Positions 47,327-59,789 of a stretch of 64,000 bases of DNA are shown here, in pieces. The notes below the pieces were generated by a model. That model made no database searches and was not told the origin of the DNA. It was given only the letters and a program-made list of their open reading frames with translations. Source of the DNA: Nitrospira sp. (GTDB lineage Bacteria > Nitrospirota > Nitrospiria > Nitrospirales > Nitrospiraceae); NCBI GenBank assembly GCA_024998685.1, contig JACOEH010000001.1, positions 124,001-188,000 of the forward strand, written 5' to 3'. Position numbers and translations under genes: made by a program. Numbering within the stretch: position 1 is the first letter of the stretch; each line of letters starts with the position of its first letter.

Positions 47327-49801
47327 TCACCTCGCAACCTGCGACGATGATCGCGCCAGAGTAATCCGAACCGACTTAAACGCAGGTTGATCACTCCGGT
47401 CGTCAACGCTCCGGACTGATATGAGGACGTTGGTTTCCGGGTAATAGGCGGCCGCGCACCGCCTGGGAATGTCGTACGGCACAACTTGAAATCGGCGAAC
47501 CACCCGCTCCTCGGCCTCGAAATGACTTGTGATGTCCACCAACTGCCCCGCCTTCAACCCTCTGTCATCCATATCTTCCTGGTTTAGGAAAATGACCCGA
47601 CGACCACCATAGATTCCGCGATACCGGTCATCCAACCCATAGATCGTCGTGTTGTATTGATCGTGACTGCGGATCGTCATCATGAGTAACTCTCCCGGCG
47701 CGAGGTCCCGCTGGGGAATGGTGTGGACGGTGAAATTGGCCTTTCCTGTTTTGGTGATGAACTTGCGATCGCGCGCCGAGTTCGGCAAATAAAAAATATC
47801 CTTGCGGATGCGCTCGTTGAACCTTTCGAAACCGGGAATGACCCTGGAGATATGGTCACGAATGCGATCGTAGTCGGCCTCAAGGGCTGCCCAATCCACC
47901 CTGCTGCGATTACCTAAGGTGGCCTTGGCCATCCGTGCAATAATAGCCGTCTCACTGAGTAGATGTGAGGAGGCAGGCTTGAGCACACCGTGCGAGGAGC
48001 TGACGACTCCCATCTGATCCTCAACCGTCACAAATTGATCCCCCGTGGGTCTCATATCTCGGTCCGTCCGACCGAGGCACGGCAGGATCAATGATTGCTC
48101 GCCGGTGACAAGATGCCCACGGTGCAGTGTCGTCGATACCTGGACCGTCAGTCGGCATCGACGCATGGCTTCGGCCGTGTATGCCGTATCAGGTGCGGCG
48201 GACAGAAAGTTGCCGCCGAGTCCAAAGAATACTTTCACTTCGCGCTCATGCATCGCCTTGATCGTATCCACCGCGTCGTAGCCATGCTTCCGAGGCGGTT
48301 TAAAGTTGAATTCATGCTCTAAGGCCTCTAAGAACCCTTCAGGTGGGCGTTCCCAAATCCCTACCGTCCGGTCACCTTGCACATTCGAATGCCCACGCAT
48401 GCAGCACACACCAGCGCCGGGTTTTCCGATATGGCCGCCTAACAGCAACAGATTGACGGCCTCCTCGATGGTATCCACGCCGTTTCTGTGCTGCGAGAGC
48501 CCCATACTCCAGCAGCAAATCATGCGCTTGGATCCGGCCACAATTTTTCCAGCCGCACGGATCTGCTCGAGAGGAACGCCGCTTCCCTCCACGATTTCAT
48601 TCCAGCTAATGCGTCTGAGTTCGGCCACGACAGCATCAAATCCGGCCGTAAAGGTGTTGATGAACTCCCGATCGAAGACTTGCCCTGGATGCCGATCTTC
48701 TTCGTCCAGCATCTGTTTCATGATGCCCTTAAGCACCGCCATGTCACCGTTGATGCGCACCTGCAGCAAAAGATCCGAAAGGGCCGCACCTTCGCCAAGA
48801 AGGGCGGGAACCATCTCCAGCGGGTTGGGGTACTCCTGTGGGTTCGGATTCTTAAAGCGCAACACTCCTATTTCCGGGAGCGGATTAATTGCGATCATCT
48901 TTGCTCCCTTCCGCTTGGCATGCCAGAGTGAGGTCATCATGCGGGGGTGATTGGTGCCGGGGTTCATGCCGATCAGGAGGATCGTATCCGCGAGCTCGAA
49001 GTCCTTCAGTGTGACTGTCCCTTTGCCGACGCCGATAGTTTCGGACAAGGCAGTGCCGGACCCTTCCTGACACATGTTCGAGCAATCAGGCAGATTATTC
49101 GTGCCGAACTGGCGGGCGAATAATTGGTAAAGGAATGCCGGCTCATTGGTGATTTTGCCGGACGTATAAAAGGAGGCTTCATCCGGAGAGCCAAGCCGGT
49201 TCAATTCCTCGGCAATGAGCGAAAACGCGTCTGTCCATTCGATCGGTTCATAATGACGCCGGCCCCGTCTCAGAACCATGGGGTGGGTCAGGCGACCTTG
49301 CTGATTGAGCCAGTAGTCCGATTGCGCGGCGAGTTGTTCAACGGACCAACGTCGGAAGAACTCAGGGGTCACCCGACGGGTCGTCGCTTCCGACGCCACA
49401 GCCTTGGCCCCGTTCTCACAAAACTCCGCGCGATGCCGTTTCTCGTCCGGGCTCGCCCACGCGCAACTCGGACAGTCGAAACCATCCTTTTGGTTTATGT
49501 TGAGGTACGTCCTGAGGCTACGCACGACCCCCATCTGATGCCATCCAAACTCCATCGTTTTAAGAACCGCCGGTATTCCCGCGGCAGCATGGGACGCTGT
49601 CCCGCGTCTGGCCGGAACAGTTTCTTCAGGGGGTTGTGCAGACTGTAAAACAGGATCACCATCGGCATTGGCCTTACATGTTTTGAGCATTTCCAGCCGG
49701 TCATGAGGACTCTGCTGCCGGTGGTTGGTCCTGGGCGTATGTTGCACATCGACACGATATCGGCTCGTCTGCTCTGCATTAGGACGCTGTTCTGTGCTCA
49801 T
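47327..49801 (-). CDS. FdhF/YdeP-family molybdopterin oxidoreductase, formate-dehydrogenase-like
   Basis: An 824-residue cytoplasmic enzyme (no Tat signal) of the FdhF/YdeP group. The iron-sulfur segment is FDCPSCAW ... AEFCENGAK (Cys110, 113, 128). The likely Mo ligand is Cys244 in LPDCSNMCQEGSG, so it is a Cys enzyme, not a selenocysteine one. Molybdopterin-binding motifs include ILLIGMNPGTNHPR and GGHIGKPGAGVCCMRGHSN. YdeP-type members are often called formate dehydrogenases, but activity is not proven for the group. fdhD lies 44 bases upstream on the same strand, supporting a formate-type Mo enzyme. Confidence 0.88.
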   Translation of the reverse strand: MSTEQRPNAEQTSRYRVDVQHTPRTNHRQQSPHDRLEMLKTCKANADGDPVLQSAQPPEETVPARRGTASHAAAGIPAVLKTMEFGWHQMGVVRSLRTYLNINQKDGFDCPSCAWASPDEKRHRAEFCENGAKAVASEATTRRVTPEFFRRWSVEQLAAQSDYWLNQQGRLTHPMVLRRGRRHYEPIEWTDAFSLIAEELNRLGSPDEASFYTSGKITNEPAFLYQLFARQFGTNNLPDCSNMCQEGSGTALSETIGVGKGTVTLKDFELADTILLIGMNPGTNHPRMMTSLWHAKRKGAKMIAINPLPEIGVLRFKNPNPQEYPNPLEMVPALLGEGAALSDLLLQVRINGDMAVLKGIMKQMLDEEDRHPGQVFDREFINTFTAGFDAVVAELRRISWNEIVEGSGVPLEQIRAAGKIVAGSKRMICCWSMGLSQHRNGVDTIEEAVNLLLLGGHIGKPGAGVCCMRGHSNVQGDRTVGIWERPPEGFLEALEHEFNFKPPRKHGYDAVDTIKAMHEREVKVFFGLGGNFLSAAPDTAYTAEAMRRCRLTVQVSTTLHRGHLVTGEQSLILPCLGRTDRDMRPTGDQFVTVEDQMGVVSSSHGVLKPASSHLLSETAIIARMAKATLGNRSRVDWAALEADYDRIRDHISRVIPGFERFNERIRKDIFYLPNSARDRKFITKTGKANFTVHTIPQRDLAPGELLMMTIRSHDQYNTTIYGLDDRYRGIYGGRRVIFLNQEDMDDRGLKAGQLVDITSHFEAEERVVRRFQVVPYDIPRRCAAAYYPETNVLISVRSVDDRSDQPAFKSVRITLARSSSQVAR

Positions 49802-49845: not shown

Positions 49846-50739
49846 CTAATCACAGATGCGTTGAGCAGCACTGTACACGTTGAACCGTCCGTCCCGTACG
49901 AAGCCGACCAGCGTCATATTGGCATCCCGGGCCAGGTCCACCGCGAGACTCGACGGAGCGCCTACGGCGGCCAGGATCGGAATGCCGGCTGCAATCGCTT
50001 TCTGGACCAGTTCATAGCCCACGCGTCCGCTCACGAGGAGCACTCGGTCATACAAGGGGACCATGCCATCGAGAAACTGCCGGCCGACCAGTTTGTCGAG
50101 AGCGTTATGCCGCCCGACATCTTCTTTCACATCGTGCAGCCGTCCGTCCCGGTCAAAGAGCGCGGCTGCATGCAAACCTCCCGTAGAATCGAATACCATC
50201 TGCGAGTGACGCAGCATGTCGGGGAGTTCGTGGATGATGGAAGCAGCCACGACGAAACCATCCGGTAATCGGGTTCGGTGCAAGGCCGGCAGGGCCTCGA
50301 TCGAAGCCTTTCCGCAGACACCACAGCTTGACGTAGAGAGGAAATTTCGTTCCAGACCAGTCAGGTCAATCTTCGCCTCGGACCGCAGTACGACGCGCAC
50401 GACATTCCGGAGTTGGAGCGATCCCGCGGGAGGGCCGCAGTGCTGTATGCTCTGAACGTCCTTGGGGCAATGGACGAGGCCTTCAGCAAAGAGAAAGCCG
50501 ATAGCCAAGTCCAGATCGTTGCCCGGGGTGCGCATTGTCACGGAGATCGTCTTGCGTGTGCGCCGGTGTGTAGCACCATACACAAGACGAATCTCGAGCG
50601 CCTCCTCGACCGCCAACAGATCTTGGTCTTGCAACACATCGGAGCCGCTCCAGCGCTCCACGGCCATGTCGACCACTCGCTGTTCGAGTACCGCGGGCCG
50701 ATCAGGATGACAGCGGCTTGGGTCATCTAGAATTCTCAT
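49846..50739 (-). CDS. fdhD: Formate dehydrogenase accessory sulfurtransferase FdhD
   Basis: A 297-residue protein that passes sulfur from IscS to the bis-MGD molybdenum cofactor. The required Cys loop is visible as STSSCGVCGKASIEAL. DLDLAIGFLFAEGL and VKEDVGRHNALDKLVG are family signatures. Start ATG 50739 has AGGAG 8 bases upstream. It sits directly before the FdhF/YdeP-type gene, its probable client, and may also serve the Tat-exported molybdoenzyme further upstream. Confidence 0.95.
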   Translation of the reverse strand: MRILDDPSRCHPDRPAVLEQRVVDMAVERWSGSDVLQDQDLLAVEEALEIRLVYGATHRRTRKTISVTMRTPGNDLDLAIGFLFAEGLVHCPKDVQSIQHCGPPAGSLQLRNVVRVVLRSEAKIDLTGLERNFLSTSSCGVCGKASIEALPALHRTRLPDGFVVAASIIHELPDMLRHSQMVFDSTGGLHAAALFDRDGRLHDVKEDVGRHNALDKLVGRQFLDGMVPLYDRVLLVSGRVGYELVQKAIAAGIPILAAVGAPSSLAVDLARDANMTLVGFVRDGRFNVYSAAQRICD

Positions 50740-50814
50740 GGCATGTTCTCCTTGGCTACATCTTCGATGGCACCGCAGAGAGTCGGTGTCGACTGTTTGA
50801 CCCATTTCATTCTC

Positions 50815-52467: not shown

Positions 52468-53289
52468 CTAATACTCCTCCACGTTCCGGTCATGGGTGGG
52501 CTGCACCGGTCGAGCGTTCTCTCCGATAATGTCCGCAAACCGCTTCTGTTGATCGACAGAGATCTGAACGGGTTTTTCCAGCAGGATCCACTGCACTCCC
52601 TCGGTACAAGGCGGCGTGGTTAAGGAACCCTTGTACGTATAATGATGAGTATTTGACGGGAGAATCTCTGCGACGTTTATGAAGAGCGGTGTGGACACGT
52701 CGGTCGTCGTTTTAGGCATCCAGTTCCAGATCTTGGCGATCCAGGGATTTGCGGCACCGAGTTCCAGAAAGACACTGACCACGACGATATGCCCCCTGGA
52801 ATCTTGATGGACCAGATGAAGCTCCATCGGGTAACGGACTCCCTCAATCTCGTGTTCACTGGGGTCATGAAAGTGAAACTGCCGAAGGCGGTAGGTCCGG
52901 TCGTTCACATGCAGCACGCTGTACGATTTATAGTCCACTTGAATCGTATGACCGTTGTTGGCGACGTGAACAGGAGTCGGTTTGTAATCGAACGCCAGCG
53001 TTTCTTGCGTATTGGAATGGCGAGGCGCGTGGATATTGATGGGCGATTGCTTCGAGCCGGCTTCGCACGTCATATATTGCGGGCTCAACATGGCCCAATG
53101 TGTAGGCCCTTCGATCCCCATATAGCCCCAGTGACTCTGTAGGCGAGCGTCCTGTTGTGCCTTGGGCAGCTTGTCCTGGTCACCCGCCGGCTTCTTCTCT
53201 GTTGCGGCGGCAGTGCCGAACAGCAGACCGATCAGGCTGACGGCGAAATAATAAGAGAATCTTTTCGCGCGAACAGCATTCTTGATCAT
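52468..53289 (-). CDS. Alpha-type carbonic anhydrase, exported
   Basis: A 273-residue periplasmic enzyme that interconverts CO2 and bicarbonate. A signal peptide (FSYYFAVSLIGLLFGTAAA) precedes the alpha-CA fold. The zinc ligands are visible as His139 and His141 in RQFHFHDPSEHE and His158 in MELHLVH; SKQSPINI and SLTTPPCTEGVQW are further family marks. The mature length is typical. It lies between a Tat-exported molybdoenzyme and a TolC-like gene, in a minus-strand series that also has fdhD and a formate-type enzyme. Confidence 0.94.
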   Translation of the reverse strand: MIKNAVRAKRFSYYFAVSLIGLLFGTAAATEKKPAGDQDKLPKAQQDARLQSHWGYMGIEGPTHWAMLSPQYMTCEAGSKQSPINIHAPRHSNTQETLAFDYKPTPVHVANNGHTIQVDYKSYSVLHVNDRTYRLRQFHFHDPSEHEIEGVRYPMELHLVHQDSRGHIVVVSVFLELGAANPWIAKIWNWMPKTTTDVSTPLFINVAEILPSNTHHYTYKGSLTTPPCTEGVQWILLEKPVQISVDQQKRFADIIGENARPVQPTHDRNVEEY

Positions 53290-53415: not shown

Positions 53416-55941
53416 TTACAATTTCTTCGCTTGAACCGCTCGGTTGACCGTGCCGCCGAATTCCAGCACGGCGAACGGCTCTTTGGATTTCCCATTCAGT
53501 TCCGCGAGCCGCGCCAGCAGCCAGGGCTCGGGCTGACCGAAGCTCAGTCGTCGAACGGCAACGGGTGACGATTTCAGGTGCGGCTGTGCGCTGATGGGGT
53601 CCTTCGCGTACCAGGTATGCTGGTTGGCTGATTGGGCACGGTGGCCGTAATGCATCGGCACGAACACTTCACCAGGCCGGACCGTATCGACCACTATCGC
53701 CGGGCCTTCCCACCGGCCATGCGGGGAGGTAATCTCGACCAGGTCACCGATCTCAATCTTCAGGCGGTCGGCGTCGGTGGGATGAATCTCGACATAGGCA
53801 TGCGGCGCCCGTTCGTTCAGCGCCATTGATCGGGCGGTCTTGGTGCGGGTGTGGAAGTGATAGACCACACGCCCGGTGTTGAGCAGGAACGGGTACTCAA
53901 CAGAAGTCGGGTTCGGGTGCGGTCGCCAGTGCGCCGGCTTCAGGAATGCCTTGCCTTTGGGGTCGATCCGCTCGTAGTCGCCGCGGGTGTTGTGGTTGCC
54001 GGTCAGGAAATCGGCACCGTACGTTTCGCACTCATCGATGCCGGTCCAGAATTTGAGGTCCTCATACAGGCGCTCAGACCCGTTGGGATGCTGCTCGTTA
54101 CAGGGCCAGCGCACCGCGCCCATTTTCAGGATCAAGTCATAGGTCATGCCGGAGTAGTCGCAGGGCCGGCCTTTCGAAACCTTGCGCCATTCCTCAAACG
54201 CATCCTTGGGCTCCTTGAACGAGATCAGCGGCGCGCCATGTCGGTCCTTGAAGCCCAGCCGGTCGGAGACCTCGACGAAGATGTCGAAATCGCTCCGCGC
54301 TTTCCCCGGTGGATCGACGGCCTTCAGCATGAGATTGACGCTTCGGTCTGCGTTGGTGATGCAGCCCGTCTTCTCTCCCCACATCGCCGCCGGCAAGTAG
54401 ATGTCGGCCAAGTCCACCGTCTCGGCATCCAAGAACGCGTCCTCGACCACCACGAAGAGTTGACGCATGATCCGCTCGGTGCGGTTCTGATCAGGCAGGG
54501 TCACGAGCGGGTTTGTGCCCATCACCCACATGAATTCGATTTCACCACGTTCGGCGGCCTCAAGCATGGACACGATGTCTTTCGGGACCTCGGGATGAAA
54601 CGTGTCAAAGTCAAGCTTCCAATGCTCGCACAGGTCGCGCATCTGAGCTTGGCTGTGGGGGTTGCGGTAGGCGGGATACGAACCGCCCGCCCCCGTCTCC
54701 CGGTTGGACATCGCGGAGGGTTGGCCTGCCATCAGCAAGGGACCGGCGCCGGGCTTGCCGATCGCCCCCAGGAGCAAATGCACCGTGTTCACCAGCGAGG
54801 ACGCGGCCGTGGCTCCGATACTCTGGTAAACCCCCATCAATGTGGTCGACACGACACGCGGTGTGGTACCGATCCACTCGGCCGCCGTTTCAAGATCCTG
54901 CCGGGGAATGCCGCAGATTTCGGCCACGCGCTGAGGCGGATACTCGCGGACGACCGCGTCGAGCTGCTCGAACCCCACCGTGTGCTTCGCCACAAAGTCA
55001 CGGTTCACCCGGCCGCGCGCGATCAGCAGATGAATGATGCCGTTCAGGAGCGCGACATTCGTCCCGACGCGCAATTGGAGGTGCAGGTCGGCGCCCTGTC
55101 GCACGGTCGGCGTCCGGCGCGGATCGGCGACAATGATGCGCCCGCCGTTTTTCTGTTTTGCGGCCAGCATGCGCTCCCAGAGAACCGTGTGGACCTCGGC
55201 GACATTGTGGCCGTACAGGCACAGCAGGTCGGCCTGATCCATATCGACATACGAAGCCACGGGGCCGTCCGCACCGAAATTGGCCATGCAGCCGGTGGCG
55301 GCGGTGGCGGTGCACATACGAGTGTTGCCGTCGATGTTGGCCGATCGCAGGCCACCCCGCCAAATCTTCCCCAGCGTGTACAGCTCCTCGACCGTCAGTT
55401 GCCCGGAACTGTAGCAGGCCAGGTTCTGATGCCCCTTCTGCCAGGCGGCTTTGAATCGTTCGGTGAAGAAATCCATGGCTTCCGTCCAGCTCACCGGCTG
55501 CAGCGGAGCGCCTTTCGTCCGGCGGATCATCGGGGTGGTGCCACGGGCCTTCGAGTTGTTGGCGACCCAACCGTGCTCGCCCTTCGGACCAAGGTGCCCG
55601 AAATTGACCGGGTGATCGGGGTTTCCGCGGACACCCACGATGCGGCCGTCCTTCACGGCGATGTCAAGGCCGCAGCCGTTGGCGCACAACACGCAGGCCG
55701 AATGCACCCACTTGTCCGGTTCGCCTTTGATACTGAGATTGGTGTCGATCCTTGGTTGCATATGATCTTCCCTCTTCACCGGAACGCGAAACTCCCTCTG
55801 CTCACCAAGCTCTCTTCCTTGCGGATTCCCCGCCTTGATCACCGGCTGCTGCGCCGCCAGCGCTAAGGCCTGATCCCCCATGGCCGCAGCCGCTGCGGTC
55901 CCTGCGGAGACTTTTAGGAATTGCCGTCGTGATAAGGACAT
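53416..55941 (-). CDS. Tat-exported nitrate-reductase-like molybdopterin oxidoreductase
   Basis: An 841-residue enzyme with a twin-arginine signal (SLSRRQFLKVSAGTAAAAAM) and the fold of NapA/NasA enzymes. The iron-sulfur segment has CVLCANGC (Cys83, 86, 90), but the fourth ligand position reads FGHLGPKG, with Gly118 where LCPKG is usual. The Mo ligand is probably Cys210 in NTRMCTATAATG. Further motifs are YGHNVAEVHTVLW and ADPRRTPTV. The substrate is not certain; nitrate is a guess. A repeat-bearing lipoprotein gene ends 34 bases upstream. No electron-transfer subunit (NapB, ferredoxin) is adjacent. Confidence 0.88.
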   Translation of the reverse strand: MSLSRRQFLKVSAGTAAAAAMGDQALALAAQQPVIKAGNPQGRELGEQREFRVPVKREDHMQPRIDTNLSIKGEPDKWVHSACVLCANGCGLDIAVKDGRIVGVRGNPDHPVNFGHLGPKGEHGWVANNSKARGTTPMIRRTKGAPLQPVSWTEAMDFFTERFKAAWQKGHQNLACYSSGQLTVEELYTLGKIWRGGLRSANIDGNTRMCTATAATGCMANFGADGPVASYVDMDQADLLCLYGHNVAEVHTVLWERMLAAKQKNGGRIIVADPRRTPTVRQGADLHLQLRVGTNVALLNGIIHLLIARGRVNRDFVAKHTVGFEQLDAVVREYPPQRVAEICGIPRQDLETAAEWIGTTPRVVSTTLMGVYQSIGATAASSLVNTVHLLLGAIGKPGAGPLLMAGQPSAMSNRETGAGGSYPAYRNPHSQAQMRDLCEHWKLDFDTFHPEVPKDIVSMLEAAERGEIEFMWVMGTNPLVTLPDQNRTERIMRQLFVVVEDAFLDAETVDLADIYLPAAMWGEKTGCITNADRSVNLMLKAVDPPGKARSDFDIFVEVSDRLGFKDRHGAPLISFKEPKDAFEEWRKVSKGRPCDYSGMTYDLILKMGAVRWPCNEQHPNGSERLYEDLKFWTGIDECETYGADFLTGNHNTRGDYERIDPKGKAFLKPAHWRPHPNPTSVEYPFLLNTGRVVYHFHTRTKTARSMALNERAPHAYVEIHPTDADRLKIEIGDLVEITSPHGRWEGPAIVVDTVRPGEVFVPMHYGHRAQSANQHTWYAKDPISAQPHLKSSPVAVRRLSFGQPEPWLLARLAELNGKSKEPFAVLEFGGTVNRAVQAKKL

Positions 55942-57304: not shown

Positions 57305-58110
57305 TCACTTTGACCCAGACACCAGGACTACGACAGCCTCGGTCGTCAGCAATCGGAACGTGAAGGTCTCCTGCAAGTACAATTCGACGACCGTCTTGGA
57401 ATGGCTCACGTAACCGATAGAGATGTCCTGCCCGATGTCTAATTCGAAATCATCGCCACGGGTCGTCAGCACCATCCCCCCTTCAATGGCTGGGGCCCAA
57501 ATGATCTCTCCATCGACAAGGCGCTGAATATGTTCAAGGAGGGGATATCCTTCGTCACTCCCCCCGCTGACGGCCTGGTACGGCCCTGCGCCCAGCAAGA
57601 GAGCGTAGGGGCCGTTGACGCCGGCGAGCCGCAATTGACTCACCGCCTGCGCGACCGCACCGGGATAACCCGTCACATTGGAAGGGAGCGTCACCGGCAG
57701 ATTGCTGCTGCCTTGACGGACGCCCTGAATTCCAGCGGCAGCATACCCATTGAAAACCGCGCGATCTTCCGCGAAGGCGATTTGCGCGCCGCCTCCTTCA
57801 GCGGCAACCAGTCCGAATCCGTTGCGCCACGTTCCACGTCGTCAATCGCCTGGCGCGTGAGTTCGAACGGAACGCGCAATTCGACGAGCGCGTTCGCCTC
57901 GCGCTGTGCGGCCTGGATCCCATCGCCGGGTGCTTGGATCTGGTGGAGATGACCGGTGCCGACAGCCGAAAGGTCGAAGCCCTTCGGACCCTGCACGTCT
58001 ACGACCCGCCGAGCCGCCAAGTGTCGCTTGAGAGTGCGAGACGCTTCCTCTTCGATTTGAGTCCAAGCTTTGTCGGAGATAGGGGCGAGTTCCCGATGGA
58101 GATTATTCAT
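57305..58110 (-). pseudogene. Encapsulin shell protein (family 1), one frameshift
   Basis: The N-terminal frame begins MNNLHRELAPISDKAWTQIE and has the family marks RRVVDVQGPKG, LSAVGTGHL and ELRVPFELTRQAIDDVERGA. Near 57777-57796 (GGCGGCGCGCAAATCGCC on the minus strand) one base is missing. The second frame then gives AFAEDRAVFNGYAAAGIQGV, DGEIIWAPAIEGGMVLTTRG and DISIGYVSH to the stop. The 806 bases are one short of 269 codons, the usual size of this HK97-fold shell (about 265-270 residues). Its ATG overlaps the DyP stop by 8 bases. As written, only the first 107 residues would be made in the correct frame. Confidence 0.88.
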
Positions 58111-59167
58111 ATCCTGCCTCTTTCTTCAGCGAACCAATACCGAGTGAACCGTCTGGCGGAGACAATCGCGATGCGGACTTGTCCCCAGCCTCGCGTTTGT
58201 TGGAGGTTGGGCCCGCCATCGAAGGGGCCGCTTCCCCTGTTGAAACATTTTCCAGGAACGTCGCGGACGGCACAAAAAACAGCGTACCGGTCACGGCGCG
58301 ACTAAAGTCCAGTAGCCGGTCATAGTTCCCCGGTGGCCGACCGACGAACATGTTCACGAGCATCTGCTCGATCCTGTGTGGTGACCGGGCATAGCCGATG
58401 AAATAGGTGCCGAATTCCCCTTTTCCCACGTCCCCGAACGGCATGTTGTCGCGCAGAATCTCCAGTTGCTTTCCGTCTTCGATAATCGTCGTCAACGCGT
58501 TGTGTGCCGAGGTCGGCTTCACGGCATCGTCGAGTTCGACGTCGGAGAGTTTGGTTCGGCCGATGATCCGCTCCTGTTCTTCAATAGGGAGCGCATTCCA
58601 GCCCTTCACATCGTGAAGGTACTTCTGGACGGTTACATAGCTCCCCCCGGCAAACGCGGCATCCTCCTCGCCGATGATGGTGGCGTCGACAGCGGCCTGT
58701 TCCACCGGATTCTCCGTCCCATCGACGAATCCGATCAAGTCGCGGTCATCGAAGTAGTTGAAACCGTGCACCTCATCCACCGCGGAAACAGCGCCGTCGA
58801 GCCGTGACATGATCTGTGTCGCCAGTTCGAAGCAGAGATCCATGCGCTTCTTGGACCGGATATGAAAGAGGATGTCACCCGGCGTTGCGACGGCGTGATG
58901 GCGGCCGTGGATCTCACGGAACGGATGCAGGTCTTTCGGTTTCGGCGCTCCAAAGAGTCGATCCCATGCGTCGGAGCCGAACGCCATGACACATGACAGC
59001 CGACCCTCGAGGTCACGGAAGCCCACTGCGCGCAGGAGCGCGGCCAAATCACCGCACAAGGTCCGAACCGCAGCTTCATTGTTCCGTCCGGGGTTGACGG
59101 TCACGACGAGAAAAATAGCGGCCCGCGTGAGCGGGGCAACGACGGGTTGTGGAACGAGGGATGGCAT
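58103..59167 (-). CDS. Dye-decolorizing peroxidase with encapsulin cargo-loading peptide
   Basis: A 354-residue heme peroxidase of the DyP family. The catalytic GxxDG motif is in LIGFVDGTENP, and the proximal heme His is probably in KPTSAHNA. After the catalytic domain comes a flexible tail ending DGSLGIGSLKKEAG, which matches the loading peptide that directs DyP enzymes into encapsulin shells. Start ATG 59167 is preceded by AAGGAG at 6 bases; the further upstream codons run into the next gene. It overlaps the encapsulin gene by 8 bases, as expected for cargo and shell. Confidence 0.95.
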   Translation of the reverse strand: MPSLVPQPVVAPLTRAAIFLVVTVNPGRNNEAAVRTLCGDLAALLRAVGFRDLEGRLSCVMAFGSDAWDRLFGAPKPKDLHPFREIHGRHHAVATPGDILFHIRSKKRMDLCFELATQIMSRLDGAVSAVDEVHGFNYFDDRDLIGFVDGTENPVEQAAVDATIIGEEDAAFAGGSYVTVQKYLHDVKGWNALPIEEQERIIGRTKLSDVELDDAVKPTSAHNALTTIIEDGKQLEILRDNMPFGDVGKGEFGTYFIGYARSPHRIEQMLVNMFVGRPPGNYDRLLDFSRAVTGTLFFVPSATFLENVSTGEAAPSMAGPTSNKREAGDKSASRLSPPDGSLGIGSLKKEAGYE

Positions 59168-59177
59168 ACGTGACTCC

Positions 59178-59789
59178 TTACTGACTTGTTCGAAGTTGCC
59201 GATCGACGCTTTTGGGCGGGGAGCCATGCCAGCCCTTGATCGCCGTTCGGAGTGTCTCTTCACCGCCAAACATGACATCCATGATTTGATCCGTCTCATC
59301 GATCAAGAACACGGCAGGTTGTCTGATCGGGACGCCTGCCATCTTGCTCCGGATGAGTGGGCGCACACGATAGGCATGCTCTCCTCCGCCATCACGTTGC
59401 ACCACTGCCCATTCCTGGTCTACAACCAGCGGCTGCGCCAGTCGGCCCCGCACGATCTGATGGAAGCCCGAATCTCCGACGCGGTGGTACCCGACCGCCA
59501 CATTCTGCTCATTGACGACGATGTGCAATCGATCGCCTTTCTTCAGCGGCCAGACGCCTTTTTCTTGCGCTTCCTTGGCGGACAGATAGCGCGGTTCCAC
59601 ATCATCCGCATCCATCTTGACTTGAACCTGATCGCCACGGATGTCCGTGACGGTGCCGACGATGACGCGATCATCCGGCAACAGCACCATCTGGCCCAGC
59701 GCGTATGGCGCGTGCAAGACTAACAGGCCGGCAAAGACCCACCTCCGGCGATAATATCGATATCGCAATGACGACGATGTGTGTTCCAT
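59178..59789 (-). CDS. Exported hypothetical protein of the DyP operon
   Basis: A 203-residue protein with an N-terminal hydrophobic segment (WVFAGLLVLHAPYALG) and a beta-rich mature part (VIVGTVTDIRGDQVQVKM, KKGDRLHIVVNEQNVAVG). The pattern resembles repeated SH3/OB-like barrels, but no family is recognised. It ends 10 bases before the DyP start and is probably co-transcribed. Confidence 0.6.
   Translation of the reverse strand: MEHTSSSLRYRYYRRRWVFAGLLVLHAPYALGQMVLLPDDRVIVGTVTDIRGDQVQVKMDADDVEPRYLSAKEAQEKGVWPLKKGDRLHIVVNEQNVAVGYHRVGDSGFHQIVRGRLAQPLVVDQEWAVVQRDGGGEHAYRVRPLIRSKMAGVPIRQPAVFLIDETDQIMDVMFGGEETLRTAIKGWHGSPPKSVDRQLRTSQ

Follow-up and report, generated by a model that had tools for sequence, protein, structure and literature searches.

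A clade of molybdenum oxidoreductases with glycine in place of the fourth FS0 cysteine, part of which adjoins DyP peroxidase-encapsulin genes

Does a glycine at the place of the fourth iron-sulfur ligand of a molybdoenzyme mark a damaged gene, or does it belong to a family of such enzymes? The question is raised by an open reading frame at 53416..55941 in a stretch of 64,000 nucleotides of Nitrospira sp. DNA (the window; all its features given here lie on the minus strand). The frame encodes 841 residues with a Tat signal, and its Pfam matches above cut-off (TAT_signal; Molybdop_Fe4S4, PF04879; Molybdopterin, PF00384; Molydop_binding, PF01568) together with its fold place the protein in the Mo/W-bisPGD (DMSO reductase) superfamily. 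As a preliminary description had stated, the coding strand read with the alignment has Gly118 (GGT, 55590-55588, in the context GHLGPKG) at the place of the fourth FS0 Cys, one change from TGT. The three remaining FS0 ligands assigned by alignment, Cys83, Cys86 and Cys90 of CVLCANGC (55672..55695), and Cys210 (55312..55314), the presumed Mo ligand by alignment with NapA, are present as that description claimed. It also took the rest of the protein to be normal, which holds for Cys210 but not for the clade-specific Thr211 beside it (55309..55311), where Met is found in all 41 outgroup rows.

Relatives were collected from one scan of genome contigs and from whole-genome and plasmid searches. Of the 21 loci from the scan, eight are closely related to the window enzyme, with best segments 71-83% identical (Acidobacteriota, Alpha- and Betaproteobacteria and one Bacteroidota), and the other searches added relatives at 41-49% identity in Deinococcus, Streptomyces, Rhodococcus, Georgenia, Arthrobacter, Curtobacterium, Halomonas, Hymenobacter, Gloeothece, Staphylococcus and further genomes. 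Seventeen of 21 plasmid places were read (H64, H68, H69 and H71 were left out), locus L066 comes from one of the two plasmid searches only, and the 34 phage records with a match were each below 60% identity. Matches of at least 350 bits were retained, 76 after removal of duplicates. L008 and L119 are one gene under two locus numbers, as are L009 and L128. Rows of at least 600 residues made up an alignment of 72, comprising 31 clade members and an outgroup of the 41 nearest Nap/Nas-type relatives. Four broken clade members outside this alignment (L042, L047, L066 and L115) were restored, their residue at the column being taken from individual BLAST segments, which gives 35 clade members.

Column 118 of the 72-row alignment holds Gly in 30 clade rows and Asp in one, against Cys in 41 of 41 outgroup rows; with the broken members included, 34 of 35 have Gly and one has Asp. 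All four Gly codons are used at this position across the clade; GGT recurs in a second genome of the genus, whose copy is 94% identical. A quick IQ-TREE run separates the LGPKG clade from the other rows by a branch with an SH-aLRT support of 100, the placement of two long rows, L063 and L111, being less certain. Since many relatives have the same Gly in the family alignment, it is a normal subfamily trait, and the idea of a single odd mutation of Cys118 was withdrawn in favour of a trait at the level of the clade. Judged from the sequences, Gly118 is fixed in a Mo-bisMGD clade that stands apart in the NasA/NapA/FdhF neighbourhood, and the pattern of the tree is most simply that of an ancestor in which Gly had already replaced the fourth FS0 Cys, and Thr the Met after the Mo-ligand Cys. 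Searches of open-licence PMC papers listed none whose title or abstract shows it to describe this clade. NasN of Mycobacterium smegmatis, described as a monomeric NADPH-dependent reductase (PMC7816997), was considered as a described member and rejected; the available part of that paper gives no mention of this Gly.

It was also suggested initially that the enzyme might be dead. Comparison of the window gene with the 94% identical copy, using our own Nei-Gojobori script, gave a dN/dS of 0.14 at a dS of 0.24, and comparison with five other near-clade genes (those of the sub-branch that includes the window gene) gave 0.09-0.14 at a dS of 0.68-1.11. This purifying selection, together with Gly in 34 of 35 members and its four codons, contradicts a dead enzyme, and the window enzyme is probably active. 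An error in sequencing, or a mutation that recently inactivated the enzyme at Cys118, would be in keeping with GGT being a single change from TGT and with the broken frames of some other members, but the recurrence of the Gly throughout the clade in four codons and the dN/dS of 0.09-0.14 make this hardly credible. Broken frames occur in the records of five of the 35 members (L042, L047, L060, L066 and L115), and stem from either decay or sequence error.

The Mo site is also distinctive. Cys210 and Arg414 are present in all 35 clade members and Lys120 in 34, with Glu in L066. Directly after the Mo-ligand Cys, all 35 members have Thr and every outgroup row has Met, and further clade-specific residues include Trp125, His245 and Tyr372. 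By single sequence and by fold the closest solved structure is NapA of Desulfovibrio desulfuricans (PDB 2nap, 2jim), the best Foldseek match with a TM-score of 0.76-0.77 by query length; the AlphaFold model used has a mean pLDDT of 70.6, falling below 50 at residues 206-209, 370-375 and 405-425 around the Mo site. The window enzyme shares with NapA the Mo-ligand Cys and an Arg aligned to Arg354, but differs in lacking the fourth FS0 Cys, in having Thr rather than Met after the Mo-ligand Cys, and in a clade-specific stretch around residues 639-648. Fold and domain order are also those of FdhF (formate dehydrogenase H/HDCR-type), and HDCR FdhF is a close solved relative. Formate dehydrogenases, however, have four FS0 Cys where the window enzyme has three, and at Mo they have Cys or Sec followed by His; HDCR FdhF shows CHA in the alignment, in contrast to the Cys-Thr of the window enzyme. 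Among the 25 NCBIfam matches listed for the window enzyme none attains its own cut-off: formate dehydrogenase alpha (TIGR01591), the best by E-value, reaches 463 bits against 666, NasC 395 against 1100, NapA 338 against 931 and arsenite oxidase AioA (TIGR02693) 148 against 359. Since Thr211 replaces the Met of the outgroup, plain Nap/Nas activity is argued against, and the window enzyme is probably not a Nap-type nitrate reductase. Plasmid members of the clade carry the annotation "nitrate reductase", which calls for caution, as in these genes the outgroup's Met is missing, and in some of them the FS0 site altogether.

The three other Cys are all retained in 28 of the 34 members readable at the motif. 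The remaining six (L062, L064, L065, L113, L114 and L117), on actinobacterial plasmids of Rhodococcus, Streptomyces and Georgenia, have no FS0 Cys at all, but Ser/Thr-His-Asp and then Gly or Asp at 118. They form one branch (SH-aLRT 100) nested within the Gly clade and still have the Mo-ligand Cys. On this sample it would appear that the fourth ligand was lost first and the remaining ligands later, and a clade-level variant with graded loss of FS0 stands as our reading of these sequences.

Three Cys without a fourth, and with no ligand gained nearby, point to either a [3Fe-4S] cluster or a [4Fe-4S] cluster with a solvent ligand. In the 72-row alignment no Cys or other likely ligand has been gained clade-wide near the FS0 site, the nearest clade-wide changes being Gly103, Trp125 and Ala127, and the different protein ligand offered in the preliminary description is thus unsupported. 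Its other option, a [3Fe-4S] cluster, we place first as the most likely by analogy with AioA. A [4Fe-4S] cluster with water or a small molecule bound to the fourth iron in place of a protein ligand fits the sequences equally well: 28 of 34 members have three Cys and no replacement ligand, and Gly, having no side chain, leaves room. Such non-protein ligands at the fourth iron are found in aconitase and in radical-SAM sites. However, AioA, the one three-Cys FS0 described as characterised in the superfamily, is [3Fe-4S], and we regard the solvent-liganded cluster as a possibility of rather low probability.

It is less likely again that the window enzyme holds no cluster, its three Cys being leftover or structural and the whole clade working without FS0. 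The six members that are ligand-free yet retain the Mo site would accord with this, but in all 28 members outside their branch the three Cys are unchanged at 43-94% identity to the window enzyme, which is unexpected for unused ligands. A distant residue substituting for the fourth Cys is very improbable. The candidate for this role would be the clade-specific His245, present in 34 of 35 members where the commonest outgroup residues are Ser, Ala and Met; yet it is retained in all six ligand-free members and absent from L058, which has three Cys, it lies past the Mo-ligand Cys in sequence and away from the FS0 loops, and no residue has been gained near the FS0 site itself.

The window enzyme, then, would most likely hold a [3Fe-4S] FS0, which, as in arsenite oxidase, would still carry electrons between pterin and exterior. 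AioA shares with the window enzyme a three-Cys FS0 (Cys-X2-Cys-X3-Cys) with a non-Cys at the fourth place; this is Ser after 70 residues in AioA and Gly after 27 in the window enzyme, and the two sequences are remote. The FS0 of AioA is given as Cys-X2-Cys-X3-Cys-X70-Ser with a [3Fe-4S] cluster at +270 mV, and AioA is there called the sole superfamily member with a [3Fe-4S] FS0; its Mo, apparently without a protein ligand, is contrasted with that of enzymes having one (PMC3758308). In the actinobacterial branch, as in TorA and DMSO reductase, electrons would have to pass from the Mo-bisMGD by a path other than FS0. Both groups are without FS0 ligands, their lineages being remote, and the Mo ligand of the actinobacterial branch is Cys, unlike the Ser of TorA/DMSO reductase. 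Moco is described as the sole prosthetic group of TorA, and the same account states that in NarG the insertion of FS0 must precede that of the molybdenum cofactor, an order also given for DmsABC in the title of a paper cited there (PMC5123574). Since three-Cys and ligand-free members occur within one clade, this rule of insertion order becomes testable in close relatives, as does the route by which a relay cofactor is lost.

The surroundings of the gene bear on its role. Upstream of it lie a DyP-type peroxidase gene (58103..59299), whose product ends in the encapsulin targeting peptide GSLGIGSLK, and an encapsulin gene (PF04454; 57308..58110) in two overlapping frames. Downstream is an alpha-type carbonic anhydrase (52468..53289), and an FdhD sulfurtransferase (49846..50805) and an FdhF/YdeP-family oxidoreductase (47327..49801) are also neighbours; all three are in G023 too, the carbonic anhydrase again downstream. 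The FdhF/YdeP-family protein scores 896 bits with TIGR01701, passing the cut-off of 582, and has no Pfam Fe4S4 domain match. The window encapsulin is split near 57784, by decay or assembly error, and the G023 copy is one whole frame. The consensus targeting peptide is given as GSLxIGSLK (PMC10960027), and nothing like it is present at the C-terminus of the molybdoenzyme, GGTVNRAVQAKKL.

Near-clade genes adjoin a DyP peroxidase-encapsulin pair in six of ten cases, with the encapsulin within about 2.4 kb (G000, which is the window's genome, G023, G059, G064, G065 and G066). In two near-clade genomes (G060 and G062) the encapsulin is on a different contig and in two (G061 and G063) it was not found; contig ends cut the loci of G062 (L040) and G063 (L041). 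In the rest of the clade, the far clade, less than 1 kb separates encapsulin from the enzyme's aligned portion in G576 and about 64 kb in G921, and there was none in G024, G297, G478, G605 or eight plasmid records. Among 59 genomes of the window's order, encapsulin occurs only in G000, G001 and G023, and the full near-clade gene in G000 and G023. In G001 contig C67 ends in the C-terminal piece of the enzyme and contig C105 in the small upstream gene, so the enzyme gene probably fell into an assembly gap. Since these three genomes are close kin, they represent one event at most, not three.

In enterobacteria, one gene of the DyP-encapsulin operons carries the annotation formate dehydrogenase (PMC10960027, PMC12140327). 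The DyP with its targeting peptide and the encapsulin of this FDH-DyP-encapsulin-RpoH operon are as in the window, and G023 and G001 have a dehydrogenase gene beside DyP which appears, by eye and by likeness to PMC10960027, to be of the NAD-FDH type. The available text of both accounts mentions no molybdoenzyme, and, judged by title or abstract, no open-licence PMC paper listed in the searches describes one of this type beside encapsulin. With this clade, DyP-encapsulin loci gain a candidate enzyme. The company of DyP-encapsulin and, in the window's genus, of formate-related genes suggests that the enzyme might belong, as a soluble oxidoreductase, to a stress module for peroxide/formate and act on a small substrate; most far-clade members have no nearby encapsulin, so such a role would not be general. 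Taken as a whole, a clade-fixed Gly118, a three-Cys [3Fe-4S] FS0, a ligand-free branch and a DyP/formate stress module form the best explanation, which we consider reasonably probable. At one clade locus, in a complete Arachidicoccus genome (L047, 3672-8258), the DyP and molybdoenzyme frames are broken and the encapsulin is whole, and the adjoining genes resemble, by eye, those of molybdenum cofactor synthesis.

Two further features divide the clade. The Tat leader and linker of the window enzyme (residues 1-60, 55762..55941) are a feature of the window's genus, and near-clade genes of other phyla are without them, starting at what is Met61 here (MQPRID and variants). The simple reading is that the enzyme would be exported in the window's genus and cytoplasmic elsewhere. 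In the comparison of the window with G023, dS is lower in the leader (0.07, on few sites) than in the rest (0.25). The contig carries, beyond the window and about 12.7 kb away from the enzyme, a partial duplicate (L004, 1315-1966) made up of the first 48 codons of the leader (residues 1-48, 94%) and the small upstream gene, which is lipoprotein-like and encodes 94 residues.

Far-clade enzymes are accompanied by a protein of about 155 residues, helical by look, which was not found beside near-clade genes. It is fused to the C-terminus of the enzyme in L061, L118, L122/L151 and L123, and adjacent downstream in L058, L059, L110, L112, L120, L121, L124 and others. Of 24 far-clade loci inspected, 23 were assigned a copy, the exception being L063 (L066, the 25th, is outside the count); the assignment is by annotation rather than BLAST for L064 and L113, and only partial in L111 and L060. 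Two copies matched no Pfam family above cut-off, and the conserved residues form no clear metal site by eye; a chaperone or an electron-transfer subunit is possible. We lean slightly towards a clade in graded loss of FS0, by Cys to Gly with a Cys-Thr Mo site and then of the whole cluster in one branch, whose reaction would be tied to DyP-encapsulin compartments in the sub-branch of the window and to the helical partner in the other. G023 has a clade member of each type, a near one beside DyP-encapsulin (L119) and a far one with the fused partner (L118, 48%).
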